Shown: positions 10,924-48,321 of the stretch, in pieces | How positions within the stretch are numbered: the stretch's first letter is position 1 | Layout of the letters: the number at the start of each line of letters is the position of its first letter | From: Zobellia barbeyronii | GTDB lineage: Bacteria > Bacteroidota > Bacteroidia > Flavobacteriales > Flavobacteriaceae | Reading direction: 5' to 3' | Length of the DNA stretch: 64,000 nt | NCBI RefSeq assembly: GCF_018603515.1 | Contig: NZ_JACATN010000003.1 | Location: forward strand, 62,001-126,000 | The notes under the pieces: generated by a model | Databases searched by the model: none | What the model was told of the DNA's origin: nothing | The model's input: the letters and a program-made list of their open reading frames with translations, nothing else | Program-made: the position numbers and the translations under genes

Positions 10924-12717
10924 ATGAAAAATTTACTGACCGTCCTCATCCTCTTTATCGCTTCGCTCAATGCAGTAGCACAAGATATCCTTTTAGAAGC
11001 TGAAAGTTTTGATAATCCCGGTGGTTGGGTCGTAGACCCACAGTTCGTAGAACAAATGGGATCGCCCTACCTCAATGCGCACGGCATGGGTAAACCGGTA
11101 AAAAATGCTTCTACTTCTGTAGAATTCAAAAAATCGGGTACATATCATATTTGGGTACGCACCATGAATTGGGTTCCAGGTGAATGGGAAGCACCGGGAA
11201 GATTCCAATTAAAAGTAGGCGAAACGGTATTAGATACCGTTTTGGGAACCCGATCCGGTTGGGGATGGCAATATGCCGGAGAAGCCAAAATAAACAAAAA
11301 GCAAGCTACGCATATTGAACTACAAGATCTTACAGGTTTTAACGGGCGTTGTGATGCCATCTATTTTTCAACTAAAAAAGATGCACCTCCCTCATCCACT
11401 AAAAAATTAGCAGCTTGGCGTCAAGAAATTACGGCCCAACCAAATGCTCCCGAAGAAGTAAAAACGTATGATTTAGTAGTTGTAGGTGGCGGTTTAGCGG
11501 GTTGTGCAGCAGCTATTGCTGGGGCAGAACAGGGATTGAAAGTTGCGTTGATACACGATCGTCCTGTTTTAGGAGGGAATGCCAGTGAAGAAATTCGTGT
11601 TCACACCTTAGGTATCTACGGTAATTTTGAGAGGATATTAAAGAAAATCGATACAGAACACTATCCAAACGGTTCAGCAGATGCCAAACTAGACCAAGAA
11701 AAAAGAGATAAAAATGTTAAGAGTTATGACAATATTGATTTATTTCTAAACTGGCGAGCTTACGATGCTTTATCTGAAGAAAACAGCGTAAAATATGTAG
11801 ATGCCAGACAAACTTTTACGGGAGAAAGAAAGCGGTTTACTGCTCCTTATTTTGTAGATTCTACAGGAGATGGCTGGATAGGTTTTTGGGCTGGTGCCGA
11901 ATTTTCATACGGTCGAGAAAGTGTTGACACCTACGGTGAACATTGGGAAGAACATGGTGAATTATGGAGTCCAAAAGAGGCAGATAATGCTGTTATGGGT
12001 TCTTCTGTACTTTGGGGATCTAAAGATACAGATAGTCCTCAGAGTTTTCCGGAAGTTCCTTGGGCCATGCCTGTTTCTAAAGATTATTCCGAGGTTAATG
12101 GTGAATGGCAGTGGGAATTTAGCCGTAACGATTTGAGTCAGATTGATGATGCCGAAGAAATACGCGATCATATGCTCCGCGCTATCTATGGTTCTTTCTC
12201 CAGTGCTAAAAAAGACGAAGTAAACGAAAATCGAAAATTGGAATGGGTATCATACCTAGTAGGTAAAAGAGAATCTAGACGTTTGGTGGGAGACCATATT
12301 TTCACCTTCAACAATGCCAAAGAAGGAACAGAATTTCCTGATGGCGTGGTAATCGAAACAAGAGCGGTAGATGTACATTATCAAACCGTTCTAGAGGATG
12401 AAAATAATCCAGATTTCATTTCAGAAGCATTATTTTATAGAGCTCCACAATACTATATCCCATACAGAAGTTTGTACTCTAAAAATATTAAAAACCTTTT
12501 TATGGCAGGCCGTAATTTCAGCTGCTCACATGCCGGACTTGGAGGCCCAAGAGTTATGCTTACTACGGGACAAATGGGAGCTGCTGTAGGTTATGCCGCT
12601 TCACTTTGCAAAAAATATGAAGTTATGCCTCGTGAAATTTATACTGGGTATTTAGAAGAATATTTAAATTTGATAGAAGATCAGAAATACGAAAAAATTC
12701 CTACTTCTAAAAAATGA
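10924..12717 (+). CDS. Exported FAD-dependent oxidoreductase with N-terminal carbohydrate-binding-like domain
   Basis: A 597-residue protein with a Sec-type signal peptide (to about AVAQ, residue 20) and no twin-arginine motif. Residues about 22-150 form a beta-sandwich of the kind fused to sugar-active enzymes (opening ILLEAESFDNPGGW). From about 180 comes a Rossmann FAD-binding motif, VVVGGGLAGCAAAIAG, followed by RPVLGGNASEEIR, the signature of the FAD_oxidored (PF12831) group, and a C-terminal GLGGPRVMLTTGQMG block. It overlaps the next gene by 4 nt (ATGA), implying co-translation. It is likely a periplasmic flavin oxidoreductase acting on galactan-derived sugars, but the substrate is unknown. 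A Sec-exported FAD enzyme must acquire its cofactor outside the cytoplasm, which is unusual. The paralogue at 23431 has no signal peptide. Confidence 0.8.
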   Translation: MKNLLTVLILFIASLNAVAQDILLEAESFDNPGGWVVDPQFVEQMGSPYLNAHGMGKPVKNASTSVEFKKSGTYHIWVRTMNWVPGEWEAPGRFQLKVGETVLDTVLGTRSGWGWQYAGEAKINKKQATHIELQDLTGFNGRCDAIYFSTKKDAPPSSTKKLAAWRQEITAQPNAPEEVKTYDLVVVGGGLAGCAAAIAGAEQGLKVALIHDRPVLGGNASEEIRVHTLGIYGNFERILKKIDTEHYPNGSADAKLDQEKRDKNVKSYDNIDLFLNWRAYDALSEENSVKYVDARQTFTGERKRFTAPYFVDSTGDGWIGFWAGAEFSYGRESVDTYGEHWEEHGELWSPKEADNAVMGSSVLWGSKDTDSPQSFPEVPWAMPVSKDYSEVNGEWQWEFSRNDLSQIDDAEEIRDHMLRAIYGSFSSAKKDEVNENRKLEWVSYLVGKRESRRLVGDHIFTFNNAKEGTEFPDGVVIETRAVDVHYQTVLEDENNPDFISEALFYRAPQYYIPYRSLYSKNIKNLFMAGRNFSCSHAGLGGPRVMLTTGQMGAAVGYAASLCKKYEVMPREIYTGYLEEYLNLIEDQKYEKIPTSKK

Positions 12718-13832
12718 GACGAATTGCGTTAGGCTTCCTTTTATTTGTAACCCACTTTTGTGATGCTCAGTTTGGGTCGCCTATCGCATTTTCTGATAGT
12801 CAAGAAAAAACTGTTTTAGAGGCTAGTCCAGAGTTTTTTATATTGGACTGGAAACCAAATACATCGCTCCACATTTCAGAAACTCCATTGGAAATCATTA
12901 CGGATTCTGTGGGTGCTCAAAAAGTAAACTTATTTCGCGATAATACAGAGGCGCCCATCTTATATTCCTCCAACATTATAACCCCTGTCTGTGCCGATGG
13001 TGATTGCAAATTTATGCACATTACGCTGTATTGGACACTTTTGGGTGATTATGCTGGTTTTGACCGCTCAGTTAAGGAGCCATTGACCAAACATGATCAC
13101 GATGAGTTTTTGTTCTCAGATTATTGGAAGCTTCACGATTTGCTGAAAGATGATAATTCAATCTTAAAGAGAAGAGCCATAGACGAGTTGGTTACCAAGC
13201 CCAAGCCTTCTAAAATTGAAGGTGTAGATGCCTTATCCGGTGCTACTGTAAAAGAGGTGAAAGAATCTGTTGTCTCTGGCGCCCTATATTCATGTTATGT
13301 AGCTTGGCATTTAGTTCATGGTAAAATTAAGGAGCAAATTAAAGCCCATACCGTTCAGCAACAAGATGAAGCTATGTTGGTACAAATGCTGAACAACGAC
13401 CATACCAATTATCAGATGTATGCATTAGAAAACCTTGACCAAAATCAGTATAAAGTCAATTTTTCCAGAGTATCGGAGCTTTTCAAATCGGGTATTCCAT
13501 TGGTGCGTTCTTTCATCATTAAAAATTTAGCAAGCTCTTTTTCGCAATCTCCAACTACCATGCAACCTTTTTGGGATGCACTTCCCTATATTGATATCAA
13601 TACCAGAAGTTTATTGCTTCAACATATTGATTTCGCTTCTGATGCTACCGTGACGCATATCTCTACGCAGCTGAGTGTACTTACTAAAAACCAGTTACTT
13701 AAATACTTAGAACACCTAGCAAGTAAAAAAGTAATTTCCACGGAAGTGTTAAAAAATCTTGAGCATTTTTCCGCATCCAATAAAGAGAAGAATGCATACC
13801 TTGTTACTGAATTCCTAGAGGATAATAGCTAA
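12714..13832 (+). CDS. Exported protein with DALSGAT (FMN-binding-type) motif
   Basis: A 372-residue protein with a signal peptide to about DAQ (residue 19). It belongs to no family I can name with certainty. The notable element is GVDALSGATVKEV: Asp172 and Ser-Gly-Ala-Thr 175-178 match the D-x-x-(S/T)-G-A-T site on whose threonine ApbE attaches FMN in FMN-binding domain proteins. Two cysteines, C93 and C98 (CADGDC), lie in the N-terminal half, and residues from about 210 are helical and HEAT-like. The gene overlaps the exported FAD oxidoreductase gene by 4 nt, so the two probably work together, for example with this protein as the electron acceptor. No apbE is in the window. The motif is seen directly; flavinylation is inferred. 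Confidence 0.6.
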   Translation: MRRIALGFLLFVTHFCDAQFGSPIAFSDSQEKTVLEASPEFFILDWKPNTSLHISETPLEIITDSVGAQKVNLFRDNTEAPILYSSNIITPVCADGDCKFMHITLYWTLLGDYAGFDRSVKEPLTKHDHDEFLFSDYWKLHDLLKDDNSILKRRAIDELVTKPKPSKIEGVDALSGATVKEVKESVVSGALYSCYVAWHLVHGKIKEQIKAHTVQQQDEAMLVQMLNNDHTNYQMYALENLDQNQYKVNFSRVSELFKSGIPLVRSFIIKNLASSFSQSPTTMQPFWDALPYIDINTRSLLLQHIDFASDATVTHISTQLSVLTKNQLLKYLEHLASKKVISTEVLKNLEHFSASNKEKNAYLVTEFLEDNS

Positions 13833-13857
13833 TCTGATATTTTAAAATCTACATTTT

Positions 13858-15300
13858 ATGGTTTCGTTTATTATTTCTGTTCTTGTATTGATACTGGGTT
13901 ATTACACCTATGGGAAACTTGTAGAAAACATTTTTGGTGTGGATACAGAAAGGGAAACCCCTGCCATACGATTACGGGATGACATAGATTTTATGCCCCT
14001 ACCCGCTTGGCGTATATTTCTTATTCAATTTTTAAATATAGCCGGTCTAGGCCCTATTTTCGGGGCAATTGCAGGTGCCATGTTTGGACCTGCTGCTTTT
14101 TTATGGATTGTGTTGGGTAGTATTTTTGCAGGAGCTGTTCACGATTATTTTTCAGGCATGTTATCCGTACGTCATAACGGACTAAGCATCAGCGAAATTG
14201 TGGGTATCTATTTGGGTCCACGAATGAAACATATCATGCGTTATTTTACCGTTATACTTTTAATTTTTGTGGGTACCGTTTTCCTTATGGGTCCGGCAAA
14301 AATTATAGATGGGATGACCGGTAATATGTGGAATCTTTGGATTTGGGTCGGGATAATTTTGGTGTATTACATATTATCCACTCTCTTACCTATAGACAAA
14401 ATGATAGGCAAAATCTACCCTGTATTTGGGGTCGCTATGTTGCTTATGGCCTTAGGATTATTAATTGCACTATTTTTTGGTGATTATCATATTCCTGAGT
14501 TGGTGCCTGCCAATCTAATTAATATGACTTCTGACCCAGAAGCCACACCACTCTTTCCTATACTTTTTGTTACGATTGCTTGTGGAGCCATATCTGGTTT
14601 TCATGCTACGCAATCGCCGCTCATGGCACGTTGCATGCAAAATGAAAGACTAGGTAGAAAGATTTTCTTTGGAACCATGATTACCGAAGGTATCGTTGCT
14701 CTAATCTGGGCTGCTGCTGCTATGACATTTTTTGGTGATGTGGGAGGTCTTAATGATGCTATGCTCGCCAACGGAAATAACGCAGCATGGGCAGCCAATG
14801 AAATATCTTTAAACATGTTGGGTAAAGTTGGTGGTATTCTTGCTCTATTAGGCATTGTAGCTGCTCCTATTACCTCTGGCGATACTGCTTTCCGTTCAGC
14901 AAGACTTATATTATCAGATATTTTTAAGACTGACCAAAAGAAAATAAAGAATCGGCTTTATATCAGTATTCCTTTGTTTATAGTTGCTTTTGCACTTACC
15001 CAGATGGATTTTGGGATGATATGGCGGTACTTTGCCTGGAGTAATCAGACCTTGGCTACCGTTGTTTTATGGACGATTACCGCGTATTTAATTTATGAGA
15101 ATAAATTCTATTGGATAACTCTCATTCCGGCAATTTTCATGACCATGGTATGTACCACGTACATTCTCATAGCACCAGAAGGATTTGAACTAGAAAATAA
15201 CATTGCCTATATAGGGGGCACTGTGCTAACGATACTAATTTCGTTGCTATTTTGGTATTATGCCGTGCAACGAAAAAAAGTGTTTACACAGCTGATGTAA
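13858..15300 (+). CDS. cstA: Carbon starvation protein CstA family transporter
   Basis: A 480-residue integral membrane protein with many hydrophobic segments. The N-terminal block GKLVENIFGVD followed by ETPA and the region NIAGLGPIFGAIAGAMFG (about 61-78) are characteristic of CstA. It is shorter than the roughly 700-residue E. coli CstA, matching the short form common in Bacteroidota. CstA-family proteins take up pyruvate or peptides during starvation. It starts 25 bp after the DALSGAT-motif gene, so it is probably co-transcribed with the flavin proteins. In a PUL that also encodes a pyruvate-lyase-family protein, a role in pyruvate or organic-acid movement is a reasonable inference. It ends 8 bp from the convergent regulator gene. 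Confidence 0.85.
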   Translation: MVSFIISVLVLILGYYTYGKLVENIFGVDTERETPAIRLRDDIDFMPLPAWRIFLIQFLNIAGLGPIFGAIAGAMFGPAAFLWIVLGSIFAGAVHDYFSGMLSVRHNGLSISEIVGIYLGPRMKHIMRYFTVILLIFVGTVFLMGPAKIIDGMTGNMWNLWIWVGIILVYYILSTLLPIDKMIGKIYPVFGVAMLLMALGLLIALFFGDYHIPELVPANLINMTSDPEATPLFPILFVTIACGAISGFHATQSPLMARCMQNERLGRKIFFGTMITEGIVALIWAAAAMTFFGDVGGLNDAMLANGNNAAWAANEISLNMLGKVGGILALLGIVAAPITSGDTAFRSARLILSDIFKTDQKKIKNRLYISIPLFIVAFALTQMDFGMIWRYFAWSNQTLATVVLWTITAYLIYENKFYWITLIPAIFMTMVCTTYILIAPEGFELENNIAYIGGTVLTILISLLFWYYAVQRKKVFTQLM

Positions 15301-15308
15301 TTGATTTT

Positions 15309-16325
15309 TTAGAGCGAATTCCTTAAAATCAACTTGGTTTCATTGCTTTTATGTTCTCTTCTGCCTTCCAAAATCATTTTGGCAGCCTCCTCTCCCATTT
15401 TCTTAAAGTCAGTACTAATTACTGATATACCACCGGCTAAAATCTCTTTAGTACTAGTATCATTGTAACTGATTAGTCCAATCTCTTTACCTAGCTCCCA
15501 TTCAGATTTACGAGCTAGTTTTATAATCTCCACCATATCTCTATCATAGGCATCAATGGTAATGTAAAGCGTTCCTTTTTTAAAATAGTCTGGAGAAAAA
15601 CGATCATATACCTCTCCTTTGAATGAGTTTTCATCACAGAATCTATCAAATCCTTTCTTGACGAAATTACCATGTGGTGCGTTTTCTCGGTTAAAGAGAA
15701 CCAACCTCTCATATTTTTTCACCAAATCAATATTTTTAACCAAAAGATTGAAAATGTCATTTTCAAAATCTTGGAAAACCATTCCATAACCCCTTGCCAA
15801 ATTTGGCTCATACTTATCCACGATAATTAATTTTTCTGGTGGAATCTTGTCTAAAGCGTCATATAATTTTTGATTTTCATTGATGTAAGTAGTAATGGCA
15901 AAATGAGTATAACTTTTAAGGTTTTGAAGAATGAGCGATTCAAAAAGTTCAATGTTCTGATGGTGGAAATACATGCTAACTTTTGCTCTATCGCCAAGAG
16001 TAGCAAGCAAAGAATTGAATAAATCTTCTTTAAAGGCCGTGAACTTATCTAGCATCAAGAAAACTCTAAATTCTGTTTCAGGGGACACATCATTTACAAA
16101 ATAACCAATTTTATCTACCGCCTTTACGATACCCTTCTCACTTAGGTAGTTTAGTGCCTTAAAAACGGTTTCCCTACTAAAATTAAAGTGAGCGGAAAGT
16201 CTATTTACAGAAGGTAATCTTTCATTAAGAACCAATTGTTTTTGTTCAATTTGGGAAATAATACTATCTGCAAGCAGTAAATATTTAGGCTTCATTGAAT
16301 TCTTTTCAACACTAAGTTTATCCAT
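15309..16325 (-). CDS. GntR-family regulator with LacI-type sugar-binding domain
   Basis: A 338-residue regulator. Residues about 12-80 are a GntR winged helix-turn-helix (LPSVNRLSAHFNFSRETVFKAL). From about 85 to the end it resembles periplasmic sugar-binding proteins as in LacI-type regulators, ending in GGISVISTDFKKMGEEAAKMI. Such hybrids (AraR-like) are cytoplasmic repressors released by a sugar or sugar acid. It is the only minus-strand gene of the left 48 kb and lies between two candidate operators, 10871-10890 and 16629-16645, that share ACTAGACC. It probably controls the flanking flavin operon and the SusC/SusD operon. Start chosen at Met1; Met11 is an alternative close to the HTH. 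Confidence 0.88.
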   Translation of the reverse strand: MDKLSVEKNSMKPKYLLLADSIISQIEQKQLVLNERLPSVNRLSAHFNFSRETVFKALNYLSEKGIVKAVDKIGYFVNDVSPETEFRVFLMLDKFTAFKEDLFNSLLATLGDRAKVSMYFHHQNIELFESLILQNLKSYTHFAITTYINENQKLYDALDKIPPEKLIIVDKYEPNLARGYGMVFQDFENDIFNLLVKNIDLVKKYERLVLFNRENAPHGNFVKKGFDRFCDENSFKGEVYDRFSPDYFKKGTLYITIDAYDRDMVEIIKLARKSEWELGKEIGLISYNDTSTKEILAGGISVISTDFKKMGEEAAKMILEGRREHKSNETKLILRNSL

Positions 16326-16703
16326 TTATTGCTTATTAGTTCTTTGAAACTACCACAAAAATACTAAAACAAAAATTAGCTATTCGTTTGTAACATCTCC
16401 AGCAAATTTCTTTACATATTAATACTCCTTAGTCATTTTCTAGGGTAAATAAGACCTTCTACATTTAATACCCAAACTTAAACACGCAATTTAGAAATGC
16501 TTTTTATAAGAAAAATCTTATTAATTTTTTAATTAATTGAGAGTATCTGAATTGTTACACCCTCAAATTCAATATTTAACAAAAATATATTTGGGAAATC
16601 TATAATAATGTTATTTATTTGTTAACGGACTAGACCAGACCAGACTTTTAATTTGGTAGGACTATCTATAAATAACCACTATTCACCACTAAAACTAAAG
16701 CTT
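16326..16703. other. Divergent intergenic region between regulator and SusC genes
   Basis: This 378-bp AT-rich stretch separates the divergent regulator and susC-like genes and should hold both promoters. The susC-side promoter and operator are listed separately. On the minus strand TATTTTTG fits TAnnTTTG close to the regulator start, but no TTTG at the right distance was found. No small gene was seen. Confidence 0.6.
16590..16645 (+). promoter_or_regulatory. Candidate promoter and operator of the first SusC/SusD operon
   Basis: TTTG (16590-16593), 20 bp, then TTTATTTG (16614-16621) fits the Bacteroidota sigma-ABfr pattern TTTG-N19-21-TAnnTTTG with one mismatch. Just downstream, ACTAGACCAGACCAGAC (16629-16645) contains repeated GACCA units and shares ACTAGACC with the tandem repeat before 10924. 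Placement over the expected transcription start suits a repressor site for the adjacent GntR-type regulator. Confidence 0.5.
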
Positions 16704-19700
16704 ATGAAAAAAGCAATTCTATTTTTTCTTCTATCGATATTCGCACTTTGCGAAATATCGGCACAAATTACGGTCTCAGGTACCGTAAGCGATGAAGAGG
16801 GTATTCCCATACCAGGAGCAAACGTTATCGAAAAAGGAACAACAAACGGAGTTGTAGCAGATTTTGATGGTAATTTCAGCATTGAGGTTGAAGGTCAATC
16901 TACACTAGTTTTCAGTTCTATTGGATATGGAACTGTTGAGAAAGCAATAAACGGCCAAACAACTATAAATGTAACTATAGCAGAAGAGGCATCACAACTA
17001 GACGAGGTTGTTGTTGTAGGTTATGGTACACAGAAAGCTGTAAATCTTACAGGCTCTGTAGAGGTAGTCAAAGCTGAAGAGATCAGCAGACAACCTGTAG
17101 CCCAAGCATCTCAAGCTTTAGCTGGTTTAGTGCCAGGACTTACCGCAACTCAATCAAGTGGTCAGCCTGGAGAGGATGGCGCTTCTATTCGTATTCGTGG
17201 GGTAGGAACCTTGGGTAGTGGAGCAAAAAATAATCCATTAATATTGGTAGATGGTATTCCTGATGACATTAACGGTCTTGATCCTAGTGATATTGAATCT
17301 ATTTCTGTTCTTAAAGATGCATCTGCTTCAGCCATTTATGGATCACGTGCTGCAAACGGTGTAATTCTTATTACTACTAAAAGAGGTAAAGAAGGTAAAA
17401 TAACAACTACCTATAATACCTATTTAGGGGTTCAAAGTATCGCCCAAAATCTTAAGTTTTTAAATTCTTTAGGGTTTATGGAGGCATTTAATTCTGCCCA
17501 ACCCGGAGCGTTTTCAGATGAAACCCTCAACCAATATCGTTCAGGGAACGGAGTAGGTACAGAATCGGCTCCTGATACGGACTGGGTTGGTTTACTTTTT
17601 AATTCTGCCGCTGTACAACAATATCATAGCCTTTCTATAAGAGGTGGTTCTGAAAAACTTAAGGTTGCCAGTTCCATATCGTTCACCAACCAAGACGGTA
17701 ACATCGCGAACTTTAACTTTAAGAGATATAATGGTAGGTTTAATCTTGATTATAACTTGAGCGATAAAATAGATTTAGCTTTTGATTTAAACTTTAGAAG
17801 AGAAGATAAATCGCAACCCGGAGCATTAACAAATTTATCCAGACAAGCATATCGTTTGCAGCCATTGTTTAACGCCATTAATGATGACGGAACAAATGGT
17901 GCCGGTTTTGGCGGAGGCCAGCCTATTGGTCTTGCCAATTCAACTGGACTAGACCAAACAATTTCAAATTACTTCAGAGGACTTATAAAGGCCACATATA
18001 GACCTTTTAATAACTTCTCTATAGCGGCTACATACTCACCTCAATTTTTAGATAGAGATCGTGATAATTTTAACGCACAATATACCTACTATGAAAGTTC
18101 AGGAGCGACAGCGCAACAATCTGGATCAAATAGTTTATTCAAAGAAACATTTACTACTTTTCAAGACAACTTTAATGCTGTCGCAAATTGGGGCAAAGAC
18201 TTTGGTAATCATAGCGTATCTGCTTTAGGTGGTTATGAGTTCTTAAAATTTCAATCAGAAATTTGGTCAGCTAGTAGACAAGGTTTTGTTCTTAGTGAAT
18301 ACCGCGGACTAAATCAAGGTCCTCCAGATACCCAATTAAACAACGGTAGTTCTACACTAAATGGACTTGAATCATTATTTGGTAGAGTTAACTATGCCTA
18401 TAAAAACAAATATTTACTAGAAGCCAATGTTAGACGAGATGCTTCTTCACGTTTTGCACCTGGTTTCCGTTCTGCAACATTTCCTTCCTTTTCTTTAGGT
18501 TGGGTTGTTTCAGAAGAAGGATTTTTAAAAGACAACGAGAACATTAACTTTTTGAAATTTAGAGGTTCTTGGGGTCAGTTAGGTAATCAATTTATATTCG
18601 CCGGAAATAGACAAAGTAATGGTCAGAACGTTGAGCTTGCAGATGGTACCGTAGAAACAGTAGAGGTAAACTTCCCATATACCGCTCTATTTGGTCTTGG
18701 AAATGCAGATGCTACACTTGGCGGAACCCCAGTAACAGGAGGCGCTCAAGGTGTGTTAGGTAATTCTGCACTTCAATGGGAAACTGGAGAGACCCAAAAT
18801 ATAGCTGTTGATGCTAAACTATTCAATAACAAATTATCATTCACCGGAGAATACTACGTAAGAAAAACAAAAGATATTTTGTTAAGTATTACGATACCAC
18901 CTTCAGTTGGTTTCAACCCACCTACTCAAAATGCTGGTGAAGTATGGAATGCTGGGTATGATTTATCCTTAGGTTGGAATGATCAAATCGGAGATGATTT
19001 TAGATATGGCTTCAACGTTAATTATTCTAATTTCGATAATGAAATCAAGAATCTTGGTGGTTTAGATCAATTACCTCCTGATAACCTTTTAAATGAAGTA
19101 GGCGGAGAAGTTAATGCTATCTATGGTTTAAAAGTTGATGGATTATATCAAGAAAGTGATTTTGACACCGATGGTAATCTAAATTCTGCACTACCTAATC
19201 CTGGTTTCGGAACAATACAAGCTGGAGATATAAAATACGTAGATTTAAATGGTGATGGTGAACTTAATAACGATGACCGAACTACTATTGGTAGTACTAT
19301 AAGTAATGAAAGTTGGGGCTTTGAGTTTTTCTCAGAATATAAAGGTATTGATCTTTCTATATCCTTTATTGGAGCTGGAGGAAGAGATGTAATGCTGCAA
19401 GGTGATGTAGGTTGGGCATTTTATAATGCTGGTAAAATTCAGGAATGGCAAGCTGATTATTGGACACCTACAAATACGAGTTCTCCTTACCCACGACTAC
19501 ACCCAGCAAGTTCGCACCCAAATTGGCGTGTTAACGAAACTTGGTTGTTTGACACTTCTTATACACGATTAAGAAATGTTACTTTAGGATATAAGCTACC
19601 AAGAGATTTTGTTGACAAAATAAATATATCCAATGCTAGGATTTATGTTTCTGGTCAAAACTTAGCGACGTGGGATAATATGCCAGATGGTATAGATCCA

Positions 19701-19778
19701 TTAGTACCAAACTTTACTTCAGGTTCAATCTATCCTGTGACCAAAGTAATTACACTGGGACTTAACATAACTTTTTAG
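16704..19778 (+). CDS. SusC-like TonB-dependent outer-membrane transporter
   Basis: A 1024-residue protein. The frame is open further upstream, but the ATG at 16704 is chosen because it starts a good signal peptide (MKKAILFFLLSIFALC, cleavage near SAQ). Next come a carboxypeptidase-regulatory-like domain (about 22-100, ITVSGTVSDEEG), the TonB box region LDEVVVVGYGTQK (about 105-117), a plug domain with the motif VDGIPDDINGLDP, and a large beta-barrel to a C-terminal aromatic-ended strand (LGLNITF). SusC proteins import oligosaccharides across the outer membrane with a SusD lipoprotein as lid. The SusD partner starts 19 bp downstream. Control by the divergent GntR-type regulator is likely. Confidence 0.95.
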   Translation: MKKAILFFLLSIFALCEISAQITVSGTVSDEEGIPIPGANVIEKGTTNGVVADFDGNFSIEVEGQSTLVFSSIGYGTVEKAINGQTTINVTIAEEASQLDEVVVVGYGTQKAVNLTGSVEVVKAEEISRQPVAQASQALAGLVPGLTATQSSGQPGEDGASIRIRGVGTLGSGAKNNPLILVDGIPDDINGLDPSDIESISVLKDASASAIYGSRAANGVILITTKRGKEGKITTTYNTYLGVQSIAQNLKFLNSLGFMEAFNSAQPGAFSDETLNQYRSGNGVGTESAPDTDWVGLLFNSAAVQQYHSLSIRGGSEKLKVASSISFTNQDGNIANFNFKRYNGRFNLDYNLSDKIDLAFDLNFRREDKSQPGALTNLSRQAYRLQPLFNAINDDGTNGAGFGGGQPIGLANSTGLDQTISNYFRGLIKATYRPFNNFSIAATYSPQFLDRDRDNFNAQYTYYESSGATAQQSGSNSLFKETFTTFQDNFNAVANWGKDFGNHSVSALGGYEFLKFQSEIWSASRQGFVLSEYRGLNQGPPDTQLNNGSSTLNGLESLFGRVNYAYKNKYLLEANVRRDASSRFAPGFRSATFPSFSLGWVVSEEGFLKDNENINFLKFRGSWGQLGNQFIFAGNRQSNGQNVELADGTVETVEVNFPYTALFGLGNADATLGGTPVTGGAQGVLGNSALQWETGETQNIAVDAKLFNNKLSFTGEYYVRKTKDILLSITIPPSVGFNPPTQNAGEVWNAGYDLSLGWNDQIGDDFRYGFNVNYSNFDNEIKNLGGLDQLPPDNLLNEVGGEVNAIYGLKVDGLYQESDFDTDGNLNSALPNPGFGTIQAGDIKYVDLNGDGELNNDDRTTIGSTISNESWGFEFFSEYKGIDLSISFIGAGGRDVMLQGDVGWAFYNAGKIQEWQADYWTPTNTSSPYPRLHPASSHPNWRVNETWLFDTSYTRLRNVTLGYKLPRDFVDKINISNARIYVSGQNLATWDNMPDGIDPLVPNFTSGSIYPVTKVITLGLNITF

Positions 19779-19797
19779 ACAATTAATTCTTTGTACA

Positions 19798-21606
19798 ATG
19801 AAAGAAATAAAAAAATTAATCATAATAGTAACTGGCCTACTTCTAGTAGTAGCCTGTGAAGATACCGTACTGAATTTAGAAGATCCTGGTAGCCCTACTG
19901 ATGCTACGTTTTTTCAAAGCGAAGCTGAATTGGAAATTGCTCTTGTGGGAATATATGAAAGCTTAAACTTTGTGAGAGAAGTACCTTTCCCGCAACTTTT
20001 AGATCATACTACTGACTATGCCTTTAACAGAGGTAATGTTGGAGGAACCATACCAGCAACAACAGGTGGCCTTACCTCTACAGAAGGTATCGTTACAGCA
20101 TATTGGGACCGTTTTTATACCGGTATCCAAAGAGCAAATAACTTATTAGGGAATATGGAAAAAGCTGTAGAGGTTTCTGATCCTACAAGATTTGAAGAAA
20201 TTAGAGGAGAAGCTCTTTTTCTGAGAGCATTTTTCTATAGCTACTTAACTGAATTGTATGGTGATGTTCCTTTTAGAACCTCTATTGCAACGCTAGACGA
20301 CTTAATCGTACCAAGAACTCCAAAATCAGAAATTATACCAGCTATAATTGCAGATTTAGAAGAGGCAGCTAGCGTATTACCAAGTGTTCAAAGTGGAGCT
20401 GCACGAGGTAGAGCTTCAGGTAATGCGGCAAAAACATTAATTGCGCGTATCGCACTTTATAATGAAGATTACCCCTTAGCAGCTAGTTCTGCCTTAGAAG
20501 TTATAAATTCTGGAGAACATGGCCTATTTGGCGATTATAAGTCTTTATTTACTGATTCCGGAGTTGGTTCTACTGAGATATTGTTAGACCTTTCTTATAC
20601 ATTAGGAACTACAGTACATGGCTTAGCACAAAGACAAGCAAGCCGTTTTGGTGGTTGGTGTCAATTAGTTCCCGCCCAGCAAACTATTGACAGTTATGAA
20701 ACTGTAAACGGTTTACCAATTGATGAAGATCCATTATATGATCCTGCTAATCCATTTGATAACAGAGACCCAAGATTAGCGGCCACTATTGCCTTACCCA
20801 ATAGTATTTGGACTGGCCATATCATACAACAACATAGTGACAGTATTGCTACTTGGCGTGTTGAAGGTGGAGAAAATGTAGAGCGCGTATTTAACCCTAA
20901 CGCTGCAAACCCTGGTGGCCGTAAAATAATTGACCCATATGATGGTACAGAATATACAAGTGCCGGAGCAAATCGTTTTACATCTTTTTCAGGATATTTC
21001 TGGAGAAAGTTCTCCGATGAACCAACTTTATTAGGTGCTTTGGCCGGAACAGGAGAGTCAGGTACAAGATCGGAAGAAACTATTTATTTAATGCGTTACG
21101 CTGAAGTATTATTAATTTATGCTGAAGCAAAAATTGAGTCAGGAACAATAGACGGGTCTGTTTTAAACGCAATTAACGAAGTTAGGGAAAGAGCATATAA
21201 TGGCAGTGGTTTTAGCAACCCAGCTGTTACCACAACCGACCAAGCAGAACTACGAAAAATAGTTAGAAGAGAAAGAAAAGTTGAACTTGCCGATGAAGGC
21301 TTTAGACTGTTTGATATAAAACGATGGGGAATTGCTGAAAAAGTTCTGAATACCACTTTACTTGGAGGCCCTGCAAACGGATTTAGTAAAATTGGAGGAG
21401 AACTTGGTTTTGTGCCAGATATAGATGATGATGGATTTATCACCTATTCAGGAGCACCAACACAAGAAAGACAAGAGCTTGGTAACTTAGATTTTAGAGA
21501 GCTTGAAATACGTTCGTTTGATGCTAGTAAGCATTATTTATGGCCTATACCGCAATCAGAAATTGATGCTAGTGGTGGTGTCGTTACACAAAATTCTGGG
21601 TATTAA
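19798..21606 (+). CDS. SusD/RagB-like glycan-binding lipoprotein
   Basis: A 602-residue surface lipoprotein (lipobox LLVVAC, Cys20), partner of the SusC protein 19 bp upstream. The start of the mature part, LNLEDPGSPTDATFF, is typical of SusD-like proteins. The N-terminal half contains the TPR-like helices, and the C-terminus has the family blocks LMRYAEVLLIYAEAK, ERKVELADEGFRLFDIKRWG and YLWPIPQSEID. Binds oligosaccharide at the cell surface for transfer to SusC. A perfect hairpin follows the gene and may separate it from the symporter gene downstream. The ligand is inferred from context to be a sulfated or partly processed galactan. Confidence 0.95.
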   Translation: MKEIKKLIIIVTGLLLVVACEDTVLNLEDPGSPTDATFFQSEAELEIALVGIYESLNFVREVPFPQLLDHTTDYAFNRGNVGGTIPATTGGLTSTEGIVTAYWDRFYTGIQRANNLLGNMEKAVEVSDPTRFEEIRGEALFLRAFFYSYLTELYGDVPFRTSIATLDDLIVPRTPKSEIIPAIIADLEEAASVLPSVQSGAARGRASGNAAKTLIARIALYNEDYPLAASSALEVINSGEHGLFGDYKSLFTDSGVGSTEILLDLSYTLGTTVHGLAQRQASRFGGWCQLVPAQQTIDSYETVNGLPIDEDPLYDPANPFDNRDPRLAATIALPNSIWTGHIIQQHSDSIATWRVEGGENVERVFNPNAANPGGRKIIDPYDGTEYTSAGANRFTSFSGYFWRKFSDEPTLLGALAGTGESGTRSEETIYLMRYAEVLLIYAEAKIESGTIDGSVLNAINEVRERAYNGSGFSNPAVTTTDQAELRKIVRRERKVELADEGFRLFDIKRWGIAEKVLNTTLLGGPANGFSKIGGELGFVPDIDDDGFITYSGAPTQERQELGNLDFRELEIRSFDASKHYLWPIPQSEIDASGGVVTQNSGY

Positions 21607-21632
21607 AGAAGTTTGTTTTTGTTAGTTTTTTC

Positions 21633-21662: not shown

Positions 21663-21706
21663 CTAAATTACAGAAAATTAGAGTTAATAGTATATTCATC
21701 TTAAGA

Positions 21707-23365
21707 ATGGGCACAATAGATATAACGGTTATACTGATTTTTACTTTGCTTGTCTTCGTATGCGGACTAAGCTTTTCGAAGTCGGGTAAAAACATGAAAT
21801 CATTCTTTGCTGCAGGTGGAGCACTACCTTGGTGGATGAGTGGTCTTTCTCTATTTATGAGTTTCTTTTCTGCAGGTACTTTTGTAGTATGGGGCTCCAT
21901 AGCATATTCCAGTGGTTGGGTAGCCATTACCATTCAAACCACAATGTGCATTGCCGGTGTTCTAATCGGTTTTTTCATTGCTCCTAAATGGCAAAAAACA
22001 AAAGCGCTTACGGCGGCTGAATTTATTACGGACCGTTTAGGGTACAGCACTCAAAAAATTTACACCTACCTATTTTTATTGATATCTATTTTTACCACAG
22101 GTGCTTTTTTATATCCTGTAGCTAAAATTGTAGAAGTATCAACAGGTTTCCCCATAAGTACCAGTATTATCGTATTGGGTATCTTAATTTTAATTTATAC
22201 CGCAGTTGGCGGTCTTTGGGCGGTAATTGTTACAGATGTACTTCAGTTTGTGGTACTTACCGCAGCTGTTTTAATTGTTGTTCCGCTTTCGCTGGATAAA
22301 ATTGGGGGTATCGAAAACTTTGTGTCACAGGCTCCTGAGAATTTTTTCAATTTGGTTAATGAAGAATACACTTGGGGCTTTATGATTGCCTTTGGTTTGT
22401 ACAACCTTTTCTTTATTGCCGGTAATTGGGCTTATGTACAGCGCTATACCAGTGTTGCCACTCCAAAAGATGCTAAAAAAGTAGGGTGGCTTTTTGGCGG
22501 ACTTTATCTTGTAAGTCCAATAATTTGGATGTTACCTCCTATGATTTATAGAGTTCTAAATCCTGAATTAGGTGGTTTGGCAGATGAAGGCGCATACCTT
22601 CTAATGTGTAAGGAAGTACTCCCTGTGGGCATGTTAGGCTTAATGTTAGGCGGAATGATTTTCGCCACTTCCAGCTCTGTAAATACCACTCTAAATATCT
22701 CCGCGGGTGTATTGGCCAATGACGTTTACAAACATTTTAGACCCAATTCAGACGGAGATAAATTGGTGAAAGTAGGTAGAACGGCTACTATATTACTCGG
22801 TATCTTAACTATACTAATTGCACTACTCGTTCCTTACATGGGCGGTATCGTAGAGGTAGTTATGAGTTTAGCGGCCATAACCGGTGGAGCTATGTTTTTA
22901 CCACCTATGTGGGCGTTGTTCAGTAAATATCAAACAGGTAAAAGTGCTTTGATTGTGACAGTCATTACTTTGGTTATCAATGCCTTTTTTAAATTTTTGG
23001 CCCCTACTCTTCTCAACTTCTCATTTGACAGAGCCCAAGAAATGGGGTTTGGCATGGGTATCCCCGTAGTGCTTTTAGCCGCATTTGAGGTATACGCGCG
23101 CTCCCAACAAAAGGCCACTTTAGAATACGACAACTATCAACTTAAAGTTGCTGAAAAAGTTTCCGAGACGGAAGAAGAAGCTGCTGCCGGAAATAAAAAA
23201 GGTACTCGGGTTATAGGTATAGGCGTAGCACTAACCGGCCTAATGATTTTAATATTATCCTTCATTGCAAAAACAGGTGCACTCTTGGTTGGTGGAATGG
23301 GAATCCTGGTTTTACTTCTGGGCAGCTATATCATATTGAAAACCACCAAAAAAGATTCCGATTAA
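21707..23365 (+). CDS. Sodium:solute symporter (SSS family)
   Basis: A 552-residue inner-membrane transporter with about 13-14 hydrophobic segments. The SSS blocks are visible: SFFAAGGALPWWMSGLSLF (about 31-49), SAGTFVVWGSIAYSSG (about 54-69), and AVGGLWAVIVTDVLQFVVL near residue 166. It probably imports monosaccharides, disaccharides or sugar acids with sodium after periplasmic processing. It starts 100 bp after the SusD gene, beyond a hairpin, and 65 bp before a cytoplasmic FAD oxidoreductase gene. The paralogue at 33224 shares the same motifs, so the PUL carries two such importers, perhaps for different products. Start chosen at the ATG that begins just before the first membrane segment. 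Confidence 0.9.
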   Translation: MGTIDITVILIFTLLVFVCGLSFSKSGKNMKSFFAAGGALPWWMSGLSLFMSFFSAGTFVVWGSIAYSSGWVAITIQTTMCIAGVLIGFFIAPKWQKTKALTAAEFITDRLGYSTQKIYTYLFLLISIFTTGAFLYPVAKIVEVSTGFPISTSIIVLGILILIYTAVGGLWAVIVTDVLQFVVLTAAVLIVVPLSLDKIGGIENFVSQAPENFFNLVNEEYTWGFMIAFGLYNLFFIAGNWAYVQRYTSVATPKDAKKVGWLFGGLYLVSPIIWMLPPMIYRVLNPELGGLADEGAYLLMCKEVLPVGMLGLMLGGMIFATSSSVNTTLNISAGVLANDVYKHFRPNSDGDKLVKVGRTATILLGILTILIALLVPYMGGIVEVVMSLAAITGGAMFLPPMWALFSKYQTGKSALIVTVITLVINAFFKFLAPTLLNFSFDRAQEMGFGMGIPVVLLAAFEVYARSQQKATLEYDNYQLKVAEKVSETEEEAAAGNKKGTRVIGIGVALTGLMILILSFIAKTGALLVGGMGILVLLLGSYIILKTTKKDSD

Positions 23366-23430
23366 ATAGTTATCACTTACTACGTTTCAAAAAATACCAA
23401 ATCTAATTACTAAAGTACAAATTGCATTAT

Positions 23431-25722: not shown

Positions 25723-25732
25723 ACCCTATAAA

Positions 25733-26617: not shown

Positions 26618-26634
26618 GGAAATATCAGTATAAA

Positions 26635-28587: not shown

Positions 28588-28596
28588 GGAGTATTC

Positions 28597-36363: not shown

Positions 36364-36369
36364 AAGTTT

Positions 36370-39417: not shown

Positions 39418-39454
39418 CGACTCTGAAAATTCAAATTAACTATAAAACAAATAA

Positions 39455-39483
39455 CGAGTTAAGAGCTTCTCTTTCATAACTCG
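39455..39483 (+). other. Intergenic hairpin between GH2 and GH43-like genes
   Basis: CGAGTTAAGAG (39455-39465) pairs with CTCTT (39469-39473) and AACTCG (39478-39483), giving 11 bp with a 4-nt bulge. There is no T tract, so it is more likely an RNA-processing or stability element than a terminator. Confidence 0.45.
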
Positions 39484-39505
39484 GTTCAACAAACAGAATA
39501 CAACT

Positions 39506-40660: not shown

Positions 40661-40707
40661 AGTTAGTACTACAAAACAAACTCAGTTCAAACTATAAAAT
40701 ACTAAAC

Positions 40708-42009
40708 ATGCAAATCAACCCTTTTCTAAAGCATTCAGCACTGAGCCTTCTAATGGTTAGTGCGTTTATCGCTTGTTCAGACCAAAAGCCAAATATAAAG
40801 TCCCCCACATCAGAAGATATTACAGCAACTGAACACCAAGTTTTCCCTCATAAATTACCCTCGGAAAAACCGGATATGCCACTAAGTGCATCGGCTGAAC
40901 GTATGTTCAACTACCCCACTCCCCGTGTTCAGGATAACGAGCTTTTTTCTCAATTTAAATACACTCGTTTAAAAGGTTTTGATTATCACAACGGAGATGG
41001 AACCGTTTCTAGACGTGATCCTTCTAGACCTATTTTAGTTGACGGAAAATACTATTTATACTATACCAAAAGAGATACCAAAGTACCACCAATTGGTTGG
41101 GACCGCGCTGATGAAGCTACAGATGAAATTCCATCTACGGATTGGGATTTATGTGATATTTGGTATGCTACCAGTGAAGACGGAACCACATGGAAAGAAG
41201 AAGGCATAGCTGTTGGGAGACCAGAAAAGCCAAAAGCGGGATGGCGCTCAGTTGCCACACCAGATATTTTGATATGGAAAGGAAAATACTATTTATACTA
41301 TCAAGCATTTAATGAGCCTAGTGGTTTACGAGGAGATTGGTGCCCCGTATCTGTTTCGTATGCAGACTCACCTAGTGGCCCTTGGACCCATGGTGGTGAC
41401 TCCGTAATTCCCTTTGGAAAAAAAGGAGATTGGGATCAAGATGCTACGCATGATCCGCAACCAATTGTTTACAAAGGAAAAATTCACTTATACTATAAAG
41501 CCGCTTACAATAAGTGGCCTGACATTCGCGATAAATATGCTGTTGGCCATGGTCTTGCTATAGCCAATGACCCATTAGGCCCTTTTGAAAAACACCCTTT
41601 AAACCCCGTTATGACCTCGGGGCATGAAACCACTTACTTTCCATTTAAAGAAGGTGTAGCAACGTTGGCTATCAAAGATGGTAATGAAAGGTACACTATG
41701 CAATATGCAAAAGATGGTGTCAATTTTGAAATTGCTTCTGTGGTATCATTAGCACCTACTGCAGCTGCTCCTTTTGCTGCAGATGCCTTTACAGATTCCG
41801 GTGACGGAAGAGGAGTTTCTTGGGGGCTTTGCCATTTTACCAATGCCAGTAATACTCCTAAGAAAGGATATTCTATTATGGCCAGATTTGATTGCGACTT
41901 AAGCCTTGACGTTGATGACCCTTCTTATAAAAAAACAGGAGTATGGCATAAACCTGAAGTTTACTTTGCACAGGCACCCAACCAAAATAAGACCCCAGAA
42001 GGGCGATAA
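40708..42009 (+). CDS. GH117 alpha-1,3-(3,6-anhydro)-L-galactosidase
   Basis: A 433-residue lipoprotein (lipobox IAC, Cys23). The five-bladed propeller carries the GH117 motifs FKYTRLKGF (about 83-91), SRRDPSRP with the conserved base Asp104, IPSTDWDLCDIWYATS (141-156), WRSVATPD with Asp186, and SGHETTYFPF with His306, the proposed acid. GH117 enzymes release 3,6-anhydro-L-galactose from the non-reducing end of neoagaro- or porphyran-type oligosaccharides. This is the strongest single clue that the PUL targets an agar or porphyran galactan. It lies 47 bp after the GH43-like gene, and 180 bp separate it from the next sulfatase. Confidence 0.93.
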   Translation: MQINPFLKHSALSLLMVSAFIACSDQKPNIKSPTSEDITATEHQVFPHKLPSEKPDMPLSASAERMFNYPTPRVQDNELFSQFKYTRLKGFDYHNGDGTVSRRDPSRPILVDGKYYLYYTKRDTKVPPIGWDRADEATDEIPSTDWDLCDIWYATSEDGTTWKEEGIAVGRPEKPKAGWRSVATPDILIWKGKYYLYYQAFNEPSGLRGDWCPVSVSYADSPSGPWTHGGDSVIPFGKKGDWDQDATHDPQPIVYKGKIHLYYKAAYNKWPDIRDKYAVGHGLAIANDPLGPFEKHPLNPVMTSGHETTYFPFKEGVATLAIKDGNERYTMQYAKDGVNFEIASVVSLAPTAAAPFAADAFTDSGDGRGVSWGLCHFTNASNTPKKGYSIMARFDCDLSLDVDDPSYKKTGVWHKPEVYFAQAPNQNKTPEGR

Positions 42010-42189
42010 GAATTTGCTTCAATATAAAATTATAACAGTCTAATGTCTGGTTGTTAAACAGTGGTAAAAACTTAATTATTATCTTAAATTTAGCAAAGGA
42101 CTTTTTTGTTGGACAGAGCCTTATCATACCCTCTTTTTCATCAAAAAAGTCTTTTTCCTTAGAACACAAACTACCAAACCACTGTTTAC

Positions 42190-43641: not shown

Positions 43642-43689
43642 AGAACACCTTGCCAATCTTGAAATAACTAAACTAATAAATACCACAAT

Positions 43690-45177
43690 ATGAAACTGAA
43701 TAAACTAATCTGTCTGGTAGCTTACCTGCTCCCATTACTCACTATTGCCCAAGAAAAGAAACCTAATATTGTCTGGATTTTTTCTGATGACCATTCTTAC
43801 CAAACTATTGGAGCTTATGGTGGTAGACTACAAAGTTTAAACCCAACTCCTAACATAGATAAACTGGCCGCACAAGGAATGCGTTTTGATAAGGCCTATG
43901 TAGAAAACTCAATCTGTGCACCAAGTAGAGCTACATTATTGACGGGTAAAATGAGCCATCTTCATAAAAAACTGGACAACACTAAGAAAACCGTTTTTGA
44001 CCATGATCAGCAGCAGTTTCAAAAAATTCTGCGTACCAACGGTTACCAAACTGCTATGATCGGGAAAATTCACCTTCCGGGAAAAATGCAAGGTTTTGAT
44101 TATTGGGAAGTTCTTCCTGGACAAGGAAAATATTACAACCCGGATTTTATTACTGAGGAAGGCGATACAAATTACAAAGGTGAATATGTTACCGACGTCA
44201 TTACAGAACGTGCCCTGAATTGGTTAGAAAACGAACGAGACCAAGACAAGCCATTTATGATGATGGTACACCACAAAGCTCCGCACCGTAACTGGGATCC
44301 GGCAGAACGCTACATGAACAAATATGAGGATATAGAAATTCCTGAACCGGATAACTTTTTTGACGATTATGCTACACGTACTACAGCAGCACATAAACAA
44401 GAAATGGACATTGCCACAAGCATGAAAATTGATTCCGATTTAAAGGCTGAAGGCGAACGTTATGCTAACGACCCAAGGTATAAGGAACGTTACGCAAAAT
44501 TTGCCCAAGACAATCTTAAAGGCAAAGAGCTTGTTAAATGGAAATACCAAACGTACATGAAAGATTATTTACGTTGTATTTGGTCGGTAGATGAAAGTGT
44601 GGGTCAAATAATGAAATCACTTAAAGAGCAAGGTCTTGATGAAAACACCATAGTAATCTACTCTTCTGACCAAGGTTTTTATATGGGCGAACACGGTTGG
44701 TTTGATAAGCGTTTTATGTATGAAGAATCGTTTCGGACACCGCTTATTGTAAAATGGCCTGGAAAAGTTAAGGCTGGAAGCGTAAATACCGATTTGGTAC
44801 AAAACATTGACTTTGCCGAAACCTTTCTTGACCTTGCCGATGCTCCTATTCCAGATGACATGCAGGGTAAAAGTGTCGTACCCCTTTTAGAAGGAAAAGC
44901 TCCTAAAGATTGGCGAAAATCCATGTACTACCATTACTACGAGTATCCGGGCGCTCATGCAGTTCGTAAGCATGAAGGTGTTGCCAATAAACGTTATAAG
45001 CTTATTCGTTTTTACGGAGAAGATGTTCCAAACGGGGAAGAATGGGAATTTTACGATTTGGAAAAAGACCCTTCGGAGATGGACAATATCTACAACTCAT
45101 CTGCTGCGGCAAAGCAAGTTTTAGAGATGAAAAAAGAACTTGGTAAGCTAAGGGTTCAATACGCGGTAAACGAGTAA
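43690..45177 (+). CDS. S1-family sulfatase (N-acetylglucosamine-6-sulfatase-like branch)
   Basis: A 495-residue exported sulfatase (signal peptide to about IAQ, residue 21). Asp33-Asp34 (FSDDHS) and Cys76 in NSICAPSRATLLTG (C-x-P-x-R) are in place. The later blocks GKIHLPGKMQGFDYW and SSDQGFYMGEHGWFDKR resemble sulfatases of the 6-O-sulfate-removing group that includes GlcNAc-6-sulfatases. In a porphyran-type galactan the matching group would be galactose 6-sulfate, but that is inference. It starts 48 bp after the preceding sulfatase and 30 bp before the GH9-like gene. Confidence 0.9.
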   Translation: MKLNKLICLVAYLLPLLTIAQEKKPNIVWIFSDDHSYQTIGAYGGRLQSLNPTPNIDKLAAQGMRFDKAYVENSICAPSRATLLTGKMSHLHKKLDNTKKTVFDHDQQQFQKILRTNGYQTAMIGKIHLPGKMQGFDYWEVLPGQGKYYNPDFITEEGDTNYKGEYVTDVITERALNWLENERDQDKPFMMMVHHKAPHRNWDPAERYMNKYEDIEIPEPDNFFDDYATRTTAAHKQEMDIATSMKIDSDLKAEGERYANDPRYKERYAKFAQDNLKGKELVKWKYQTYMKDYLRCIWSVDESVGQIMKSLKEQGLDENTIVIYSSDQGFYMGEHGWFDKRFMYEESFRTPLIVKWPGKVKAGSVNTDLVQNIDFAETFLDLADAPIPDDMQGKSVVPLLEGKAPKDWRKSMYYHYYEYPGAHAVRKHEGVANKRYKLIRFYGEDVPNGEEWEFYDLEKDPSEMDNIYNSSAAAKQVLEMKKELGKLRVQYAVNE

Positions 45178-45207
45178 AATATATTGTTTATAAGTAACTA
45201 AAAACTG

Positions 45208-47151: not shown

Positions 47152-47169
47152 ATTAACCTCATTTTTAAC

Positions 47170-48321
47170 ATGAAAAATTTTTCCAATTACTTAGTATGTT
47201 TTATCCTCGCAACGGTAGTCATATCATGCAAGAACGAACCTAAAAGCACTACTATGAAAGAGGTAGAACAAGAGGTTAAAAAACCGAATTTAAAACTATT
47301 GGTAGGTACTCACGCAAGTGGAGATGAGCAAGGTATTTATCAACTAGACTTTAATCCAACAACCGGCGAATTATCGAACTCAGAACATTTAGTAAAAGAA
47401 AACAACTCAGGTTACCTGTACCTCTCTAAAGATGGAAAAAGGGTGTATTCTTCTAACGGAACAAAACCAGGTAGTGTATCTGCATTTGAGTGGGATAATG
47501 AAGGTGTTAAGTTAAATAAAGTTGCTAATGTATCTAGTGAAGGTGATGGTGCTTGCTATATTGAACTAAGTCCGAATGAGGACCTTCTTGCTGCTGCTAA
47601 TTACGGCTCAGGCGGTATAGTACTATATAAAGTAGCTGAAAACGGAAAAATTACGGGTGAGCCAGAAGCTCGCCAACACTTAGGTAAAGGGCCGCATGAC
47701 AATCAAAAGTCTCCCCATGCACATTGCGTGAAATTTAGTAAGGCTGGAGATTTTCTTTATGCCGTAGATTTGGGAATTGACAAAGTATTAGCTTACCCAA
47801 TTAATAGTGACGGTACATTAGGAAAAGAACATACCGCTTTACAATTAGACCTGGGTGACGGGCCGCGTCATCTTATTTTTCACCCTACAAAAAACAGGGT
47901 TTTCATTATTAATGAATTGTATAGCTCGGTTGTCTCTGCAGATGTGGATACTAAAACGGGGATATTTACTAAAATTGATAAAAAGAGCACTCTTCCAGAA
48001 GAATATGATGGCCCAAATGCGTGTGCAGATATTCACTTGAGTAATGATGCTAAATTTCTATATGCCAGTAATCGTGGGCATAATAGTGTTGCTATTTTTT
48101 CGGTTTCGGATGATGGACAAATGAATTTATTGGGTACAGAATTCGTTCAAGGAGATTGGCCAAGAAACTTCACTTTATCACCGGATAATAATTTTCTGTT
48201 AGTTGCGAATAGAAAGTCTAACAATATTGCAGTATTTAAAAGAGATACTGCCACTGGTCTTTTGTCATTTACAGGTAACGAAGTGAAGTTACCTCAGCCA
48301 GTTTGCCTAAAATTTAGATAG
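47170..48321 (+). CDS. Exported lactonase-family beta-propeller (6-phosphogluconolactonase-like)
   Basis: A 383-residue lipoprotein (lipobox VVISC, Cys20). Seven-bladed propeller motifs repeat through the protein: LLVGTHASGDEQGIY, YLYLSKDGKRVYSSNG, HAHCVKFSKAGDFLYAVDLG, and NDAKFLYASNRGHNSVAIF. This is the PF10282 lactonase family, whose members hydrolyse sugar lactones. The cytosolic pentose-pathway enzyme is unlikely here because this protein is exported. If one of the FAD proteins makes a lactone in the periplasm, this enzyme could open it to an aldonic acid for the dehydratase pathway. It is the last PUL gene; a nested hairpin follows. Confidence 0.85.
   Translation: MKNFSNYLVCFILATVVISCKNEPKSTTMKEVEQEVKKPNLKLLVGTHASGDEQGIYQLDFNPTTGELSNSEHLVKENNSGYLYLSKDGKRVYSSNGTKPGSVSAFEWDNEGVKLNKVANVSSEGDGACYIELSPNEDLLAAANYGSGGIVLYKVAENGKITGEPEARQHLGKGPHDNQKSPHAHCVKFSKAGDFLYAVDLGIDKVLAYPINSDGTLGKEHTALQLDLGDGPRHLIFHPTKNRVFIINELYSSVVSADVDTKTGIFTKIDKKSTLPEEYDGPNACADIHLSNDAKFLYASNRGHNSVAIFSVSDDGQMNLLGTEFVQGDWPRNFTLSPDNNFLLVANRKSNNIAVFKRDTATGLLSFTGNEVKLPQPVCLKFR

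Follow-up and report, generated by a model that had tools for sequence, protein, structure and literature searches.

In the De Ley-Doudoroff pathway, D-galactonate is handled by DgoD, DgoK and DgoA, and periplasmic oxidation of a sugar with a PF10282 lactonase is represented by structure 6IGB, which we take to be PpgL. Fumarate-reductase-like flavin adenine dinucleotide (FAD) enzymes with flavin mononucleotide (FMN) domains have also been described, as have the ApbE acceptor motif, [S/T]GA[S/T], and the flavinylation acceptors FMN_bind, DUF2271 and DUF3570 (PMC8238504, as far as its available text goes); FMN_red and Flavodoxin_4 are further acceptors (available part of PMC10979944). PF12831, DUF4405 and the word ‘carbohydrate’ do not occur in the main text of PMC8238504. 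Here we describe a 64-kb stretch of Zobellia barbeyronii DNA (the window), which lies on a single contig of a genome of 4.98 Mb. The window is a Zobellia locus for the utilisation of sulfated galactans, and in it the gene for an exported FAD_oxidored enzyme runs into that of a candidate flavin carrier. Our reading, which we hold to be rather probable, is that the locus consists of two evolutionary layers, a conserved core that includes this flavin pair and an aldonate module present at this site in one species only. The first layer would comprise SusC/D, glycosidases, sulfatases, the exported FAD dehydrogenase, its carrier partner, a symporter, a second FAD_oxidored enzyme and a lactonase; the second would be a self-contained set of symporter, acid-sugar dehydratase and DHDPS-family enzyme, inserted in this species.

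Pfam scans covered 35 open reading frames (ORFs) of the window. The exported FAD enzyme (10924-12717, plus strand, 597 residues; PF12831, E 1.1e-60), already recognised as an exported flavin oxidoreductase in the initial annotation, has a signal-peptide-like start by eye and a beta-rich N-terminal region that precedes the FAD domain (residues 183-577). It is present in all nine Zobellia genomes at 91-100% identity, its closest named relatives being those of Zobellia amurskyensis, russellii and uliginosa (91-93% identical). Six Pfam families matched it at E 0.001, namely PF12831 and other Rossmann-type FAD/NAD families, and no GMC or FAD_binding_4 domain was found at that threshold; its best NCBIfam matches fell far below cut-off. 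The carrier gene (12714-13832, plus strand) overlaps it by 4 bp and encodes a protein with a signal-peptide-like start, again by eye, a DALSGAT motif that includes T178, and two cysteines, C93 and C98.

The two genes travel together. A carrier search over 299 genomes of the family was positive in 31 genomes, at 38 places, and 30 of these places, one being the window's own, were examined as loci. A FAD_oxidored-like gene adjoined the carrier in 29 of the 30, immediately upstream of it in 27 and immediately downstream in the other 2. The 4-bp overlap recurred in 14 of the 16 loci whose FAD neighbour best matches the exported enzyme. From the FAD enzyme side, the carrier gene came directly after it in 19 of 20 named loci, a sample that shares several genomes with the carrier sample and comes from a search that reached close relatives only. 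In the twentieth, from Rhodopirellula europaea, the gene after a relative of the FAD enzyme (54%) encodes a membrane protein of the DUF4405 type that contains DGLTGAT (L093, 2072-4938), a different protein bearing a motif of this kind.

Within the carrier family the ApbE-type flavinylation motif is conserved. In an alignment of 32 carrier proteins, its D and T were kept in 32/32 and its G and A in 31/32 each, and Cys93 and Cys98 were both conserved in 32/32; in a second set (n = 18), D, G, T and Cys98 were invariant, with a single member lacking Cys93. With patterns defined post hoc from the alignment, the strict motif D[AG].[ST]GA[ST] was seen in 22 of 31 family members and a looser one in 30; as a control, 464 other ORFs from these loci gave 0 and 4 matches, respectively. 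The host genome's NqrC-like protein carries VDALAGAT, the same VDAL-x-GAT as the carrier, and three ApbE genes lie above cut-off in this genome. Taken together, the pairing, the motif conservation, the NqrC-like motif, the ApbE genes and the DGLTGAT of Rhodopirellula give fair evidence that the family acts as an electron carrier.

We infer from this an electron transfer and its direction. Outside the cytoplasm, the exported FAD enzyme would take hydride from a sugar or oligosaccharide and pass electrons to the neighbouring carrier, which would hold FMN attached covalently by ApbE at Thr178 and from which the electrons would reach the respiratory membrane. The wider proposal, that an exported PF12831 dehydrogenase and a new ApbE-flavinylated carrier family form a two-protein respiratory sugar oxidase of algal-glycan loci in Bacteroidota, by which these bacteria would gain energy from algal sugars ahead of their uptake and to which a planctomycete would have an analogue of the DUF4405 type, is tentative, and we would not be surprised to see it fail. 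If it is true, polysaccharide loci of marine Bacteroidota hold a respiration-coupled oxidation step, and a class is added to the flavinylated proteins; annotation would miss this step, as the carrier belongs to no Pfam family and the FAD enzyme is not named by any NCBIfam model. The pair is in our view the noteworthy part of the locus, and it was overlooked in the initial annotation, from which the carrier gene, the second FAD_oxidored gene (23422-25722), a DUF7133 protein (5488-7749) and the gene at 24-698 were all absent.

Several observations count against this mechanism. No FMN_bind or other Pfam family lay above cut-off in the carrier, even at E 10, and the family is not detected by PF04205; a genome search gave one FMN_bind protein per Zobellia genome, which we read, judging from its neighbours, as NqrC. 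Profile comparison of the carrier with NqrC was weak (probability 13.8, E 0.002), with the motifs in alignment. In the carrier model (pLDDT, the predicted local distance difference test score, 85.8), the C-terminal half is helical-repeat and residues 166-175, which overlap the motif, are of low confidence; Foldseek matched helical-repeat proteins, none at E 0.001, and no FMN protein was among the 50 matches listed. The motif also varies, reading DALSGST and DAITSAT in two of the 32 aligned carriers and DAVTGET in 1 of 18 in the second set (the member without Cys93). No ApbE gene occurred among the window ORFs scanned, and one of the 30 carrier loci, L032, has no FAD neighbour. Support for the predicted covalent flavinylation is indirect. 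The exported FAD enzyme was modelled poorly (pLDDT 62.3), and solved structures matched this low-confidence model with low template-modelling (TM) scores; we set the structure comparison aside and hence make no active-site argument.

The second layer is the cassette at 31159-34909. In the window, about 4.1 kb separates a gene of glycoside hydrolase (GH) family 2, which ends at 30888, from a sulfatase gene that starts at 34906. This stretch was absent from all five relatives in which both flanks aligned (G236, G001, G011, G680 and G682); in these, 82-113 bp separate one aligned flank from the other. G681, with a FAD enzyme of 99% identity, lacks the GH2 gene as well as the cassette. A dehydratase ortholog was found in one of the nine Zobellia genomes, the best protein in the others being at most 32% identical, as well as in 1 of 298 other family genomes (E 1e-60) and in 0 of 394 other phylum genomes (E 1e-80), two samples that overlap. 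Because the outgroups G011 and Kriegella (L069) also have no cassette, it is probably an insertion in this species rather than the survivor of repeated loss. Its G+C (0.379-0.397) is like that of the rest of the locus, so base composition is uninformative on foreign origin.

The cassette also appears to have an independent existence outside this locus. In G017 (L096), SusC/SusD proteins with about 60% identity to those of the window are followed by a 1139-residue protein, the DHDPS-dehydratase pair and a symporter that is 41% identical. In an alphaproteobacterial comparison of four annotated plasmid loci (a fifth was without annotation), an SMP-30 lactonase-family gene lies near the pair in three of the four (Agrobacterium, Roseomonas and Roseibium), as do SDR and ketodeoxygalactonokinase genes in three (Sinorhizobium, Agrobacterium and Roseibium). 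Judged by these distributions, the parts that the initial annotation had assembled into one pathway split into a conserved core and a one-species addition: the FAD enzyme and the lactonase are in 9/9 Zobellia genomes, the dehydratase in 1/9. It would be wrong to ascribe the dehydratase and lyase genes to the galactan locus that the genus has in common.

The first gene of the cassette (31159-32055, plus strand; PF00701, E 2.4e-30) does encode a protein of the DHDPS family, in agreement with its earlier description as a pyruvate-lyase-family protein, whereas its role as a lyase is uncertain. The best solved relative is 7c0c, L-2-keto-3-deoxyarabonate dehydratase. The Schiff-base Lys of KEET is kept, and Gln stands where YagE has the Tyr of Y-N-x-P; the Lys plus Tyr combination of YagE-type ketodeoxy-aldonate aldolases is thus not found here. 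The window protein and four close orthologs read LQNAP (L098 and L100 gave no ORF for this alignment). LQNAP replaces the Y-N-x-P of YagE, much as VQDAP does in ketodeoxyarabonate dehydratase, and dehydration is as possible as cleavage.

The second gene (32052-33227, plus strand; PF13378, E 2.5e-44) is acid-sugar dehydratase-like and belongs to the enolase superfamily (MR_MLE). It matches 2ppg (E 5.1e-138) and 4h1z (E 1.4e-137), with 2NQL/4DN1 also close; no function for 2PPG/4H1Z or 2NQL/4DN1 was found in our literature searches, which here and below covered open-licence papers only. The D/E/E metal ligands and D-x-H, which we assume to be the mark of acid-sugar dehydratases, are present as CDMHW, FEAP/AEAP and GEE, all common to the orthologs from S. 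meliloti, G017 and Roseibium. The label ‘GalD-like’ did not survive, as the DgoD model NF010624 has its cut-off at 311 and gave this protein 167.5 bits, and we rejected this identity. A genuine DgoD is encoded elsewhere in the host genome (629.2 bits), on the same contig about 390 kb away, and its orthologs (96-98% identical) stand beside a GntP-type transporter in 9/9 Zobellia genomes. An SMP-30 lactonase-family gene follows DgoD-GntP in both longer stretches examined (the window genome and G680); in the window's genome, the run at L182 6912-10494 holds the SMP-30 gene, the GntP-type transporter and galactonate dehydratase. The third cassette gene (33224-34909, plus strand; PF00474, E 4.6e-27) is an SSF symporter and with its counterpart at 21707-23365 bears out the earlier claim that symporters are present.

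What the flavin pair might oxidise was approached through its neighbours. We compared 24 hand-chosen loci of about 20 kb each, two of them from G129 and the window's own excluded, a comparison that sees genes within about 10 kb only. SusC relatives occurred in 10 of these, SusD relatives in 9, a CstA-family transporter in 8, symporter 1 in 7 and a related sulfatase group in 6. In the window the CstA gene lies at 13858-15300 (plus strand; PF02554, E 1.3e-56), and its recurrence near the pair hints at a small carboxylate product. The enzymes near the pair vary, being GH31, GH10, GH43/GH117-type or sulfatase genes, and for this reason the pair appears to serve glycan loci in general rather than a single galactan. 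Literature searches found no report of a FAD oxidoreductase with galactonate dehydratase in polysaccharide utilisation loci (PULs), returned PF12831/FAD_oxidored only in a Brucella context, and gave no flavinylation terms with sulfatase or PUL/Zobellia among the matches listed, where one paper in a PUL context did mention a FAD-dependent oxidoreductase; the Zobellia papers PMC9296495 and PMC5613140 name no such pair in their available text.

The same variety of neighbouring enzymes would suit a pair that oxidises the sugar at another position, for example at C3 to give a 3-keto glycoside for the product of 24-698, or that removes a substituent, with no lactone formed in either case. The gene at 24-698, at the window edge, encodes a DUF1080-type protein of the 3-keto-disaccharide hydrolase family (PF06439, E 2.9e-27), and 13 of 17 other genomes searched have no lactonase of at least 59% identity. 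Relatives of 24-698 recur in fewer than 3 of the 24 loci, however, and we regard this explanation, with its putative substrate, as possible, if somewhat unlikely.

The direction of the reaction could also be reductive, as in characterised relatives, making the FAD enzyme a respiratory reductase that would take electrons from the FMN protein and deliver them to an unsaturated or keto compound. Characterised flavinylated fumarate-reductase-like enzymes are reductases (PMC8238504, available text). Against this, the pair tracks glycan loci, and PF12831 spans the FAD domain whereas PF00890 matches 37 residues only. The hosts of the pair are, moreover, mostly aerobic alga degraders. We therefore think a reductase unlikely and retain the oxidative direction for the flavin pair.

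A further alternative is the route that the initial annotation had proposed, in this species at least: the FAD enzyme makes a lactone, the lactonase opens it, symporter 2 imports the acid and the cassette converts it to pyruvate or a related keto acid. The lactonase was identified correctly as an exported lipoprotein (47170-48321, plus strand; PF10282, E 5e-106; a VVISC lipobox-like sequence by eye). Its match to PF10282 is full-length (355.2 bits, cut-off 21.7, profile positions 2-344 of 344), it is related to the periplasmic gluconolactonase 6igb (E 1.2e-35), and hydrolysis of a sugar lactone is its predicted activity. It occurs in all nine Zobellia genomes at 74-100% identity. In eight of them about 30-36 kb of a shared contig lies between it and the exported FAD enzyme, and in the ninth the two are on different contigs; it also shares the FAD-enzyme locus in Pseudozobellia (G011), G018 and Cytophaga sp. 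FL35. In G212, a lactonase 67% identical lies on a contig separate from the FAD enzyme and has a DGOK kinase and a KDPG-type aldolase as neighbours, and the SMP-30 lactonase-family, SDR or kinase genes near the alphaproteobacterial pairs likewise speak for the route. Against it, the core locus elsewhere has no cassette, the Kriegella core stretches (L069 and L163) have no lactonase, and lactonases at least 59% identical were found in only 4 of 17 other genomes searched (G011, G018, FL35 and G212). To our knowledge, moreover, PF12831 is not among the flavin families that oxidise sugars at C1 (GMC, VAO). That all nine Zobellia genomes keep galactonate dehydratase and GntP elsewhere also weighs against one ordered route. 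The lactone idea is alive but not favoured, and the full sequence of steps strikes us as distinctly improbable. More doubtful again is the idea that not the FAD enzyme but the cytochrome-c-linked DUF7133 protein (5488-7749) produces the lactone: this protein has a DUF7133 part (E 6.5e-95), presumably a dehydrogenase, with a cytochrome c domain, and copies 83-96% identical in the examined Zobellia loci that reach this far, but its solved-structure matches at E <0.01 are confined to the cytochrome part and it is absent from the G011 stretches examined (L043-L045 and L079). The protein is in its own right a second candidate extracytoplasmic dehydrogenase in the locus.

The rest of the window is consistent with a galactan locus. 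The Pfam scans identified five sulfatases in 794-45177, SusC/D, three GH2 proteins, GH97, GH29 and GH43-like proteins, two SSF symporters, two FAD_oxidored enzymes, the DUF7133-cytochrome c protein and the lactonase. A GntR/LacI-type regulator (15309-16325, minus strand) precedes a SusC and SusD pair (16653-21606, plus strand; PF07715/PF13715 and PF07980), symporter 1, which recurs with the flavin pair (21707-23365, plus strand; PF00474, E 1e-36), and the second FAD_oxidored enzyme (23422-25722, plus strand; PF12831, E 4.8e-91). The latter has no visible signal peptide, is 36% identical to the exported enzyme over that protein's residues 182-575, and matches solved structures at the Rossmann level only. 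The next gene (25658-26617, plus strand; likely start near 25736 by eye) encodes a hydrolase-like, probably exported protein with no Pfam family above cut-off (PF00135 matched weakly below it, E 0.0012); L069, a core locus of Kriegella, holds a copy of it at 71% identity, and it is a possible alternative ester or lactone hydrolase. Because the gene at 40708-42009 (plus strand) is the 4U6B orthologue, a 3,6-anhydro-L-galactosidase relative (4u6b, E 4.1e-280; 3p2n and 4ak5, E about 3e-61) that we take to be GH117-type, and because the sulfatase at 43690-45177 (plus strand), near mucin-desulfating and 6-O-sulfatases (7p24, E 8.6e-151), is also near the exo-L-galactose-6-sulfatase 7lha (E 9e-103), the likely target of the locus is a red-algal agaran-type galactan. 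A second SusC/SusD pair lies at 57919-62902. Close to where the window ends, an ORF on the minus strand (63094-63954) has a weak sulfatase C-terminal match below cut-off.

Set beside the described systems, the locus resembles each in part. Like the extracytosolic flavinylated fumarate-reductase-like systems, it joins an exported FAD enzyme to a protein with an ApbE-type motif; unlike them, its FAD domain is PF12831 and it is tied to glycan loci, and its carrier falls outside PF04205 and is set apart from the named acceptor families by their descriptions (PMC8238504, in the text available). The lactonase family and the extracytoplasmic location are common to this locus and the PpgL (6IGB) system, although the oxidant here is not a pyrroloquinoline quinone (PQQ) glucose dehydrogenase and its link to the lactonase is putative. 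An acid-sugar dehydratase with a keto-acid-processing enzyme recalls the De Ley-Doudoroff pathway; the cassette dehydratase nevertheless falls below the DgoD cut-off while the true DgoD is elsewhere in the genome, and neither a DGOK kinase nor a KDPG-type aldolase was found among the window ORFs scanned. Finally, with the carrageenan regulon of Zobellia galactanivorans, a species with reported deletion mutants (PMC5698469, available part), the locus shares the genus, sulfatases, GH2, GH29 and the presence, among galactan genes, of one resembling an aldonic acid dehydratase. That regulon uses GH127/GH129-type enzymes and ZGAL_3153-3156 (PMC5698469), where the present locus contains the flavin pair and an enzyme of GH117 type.

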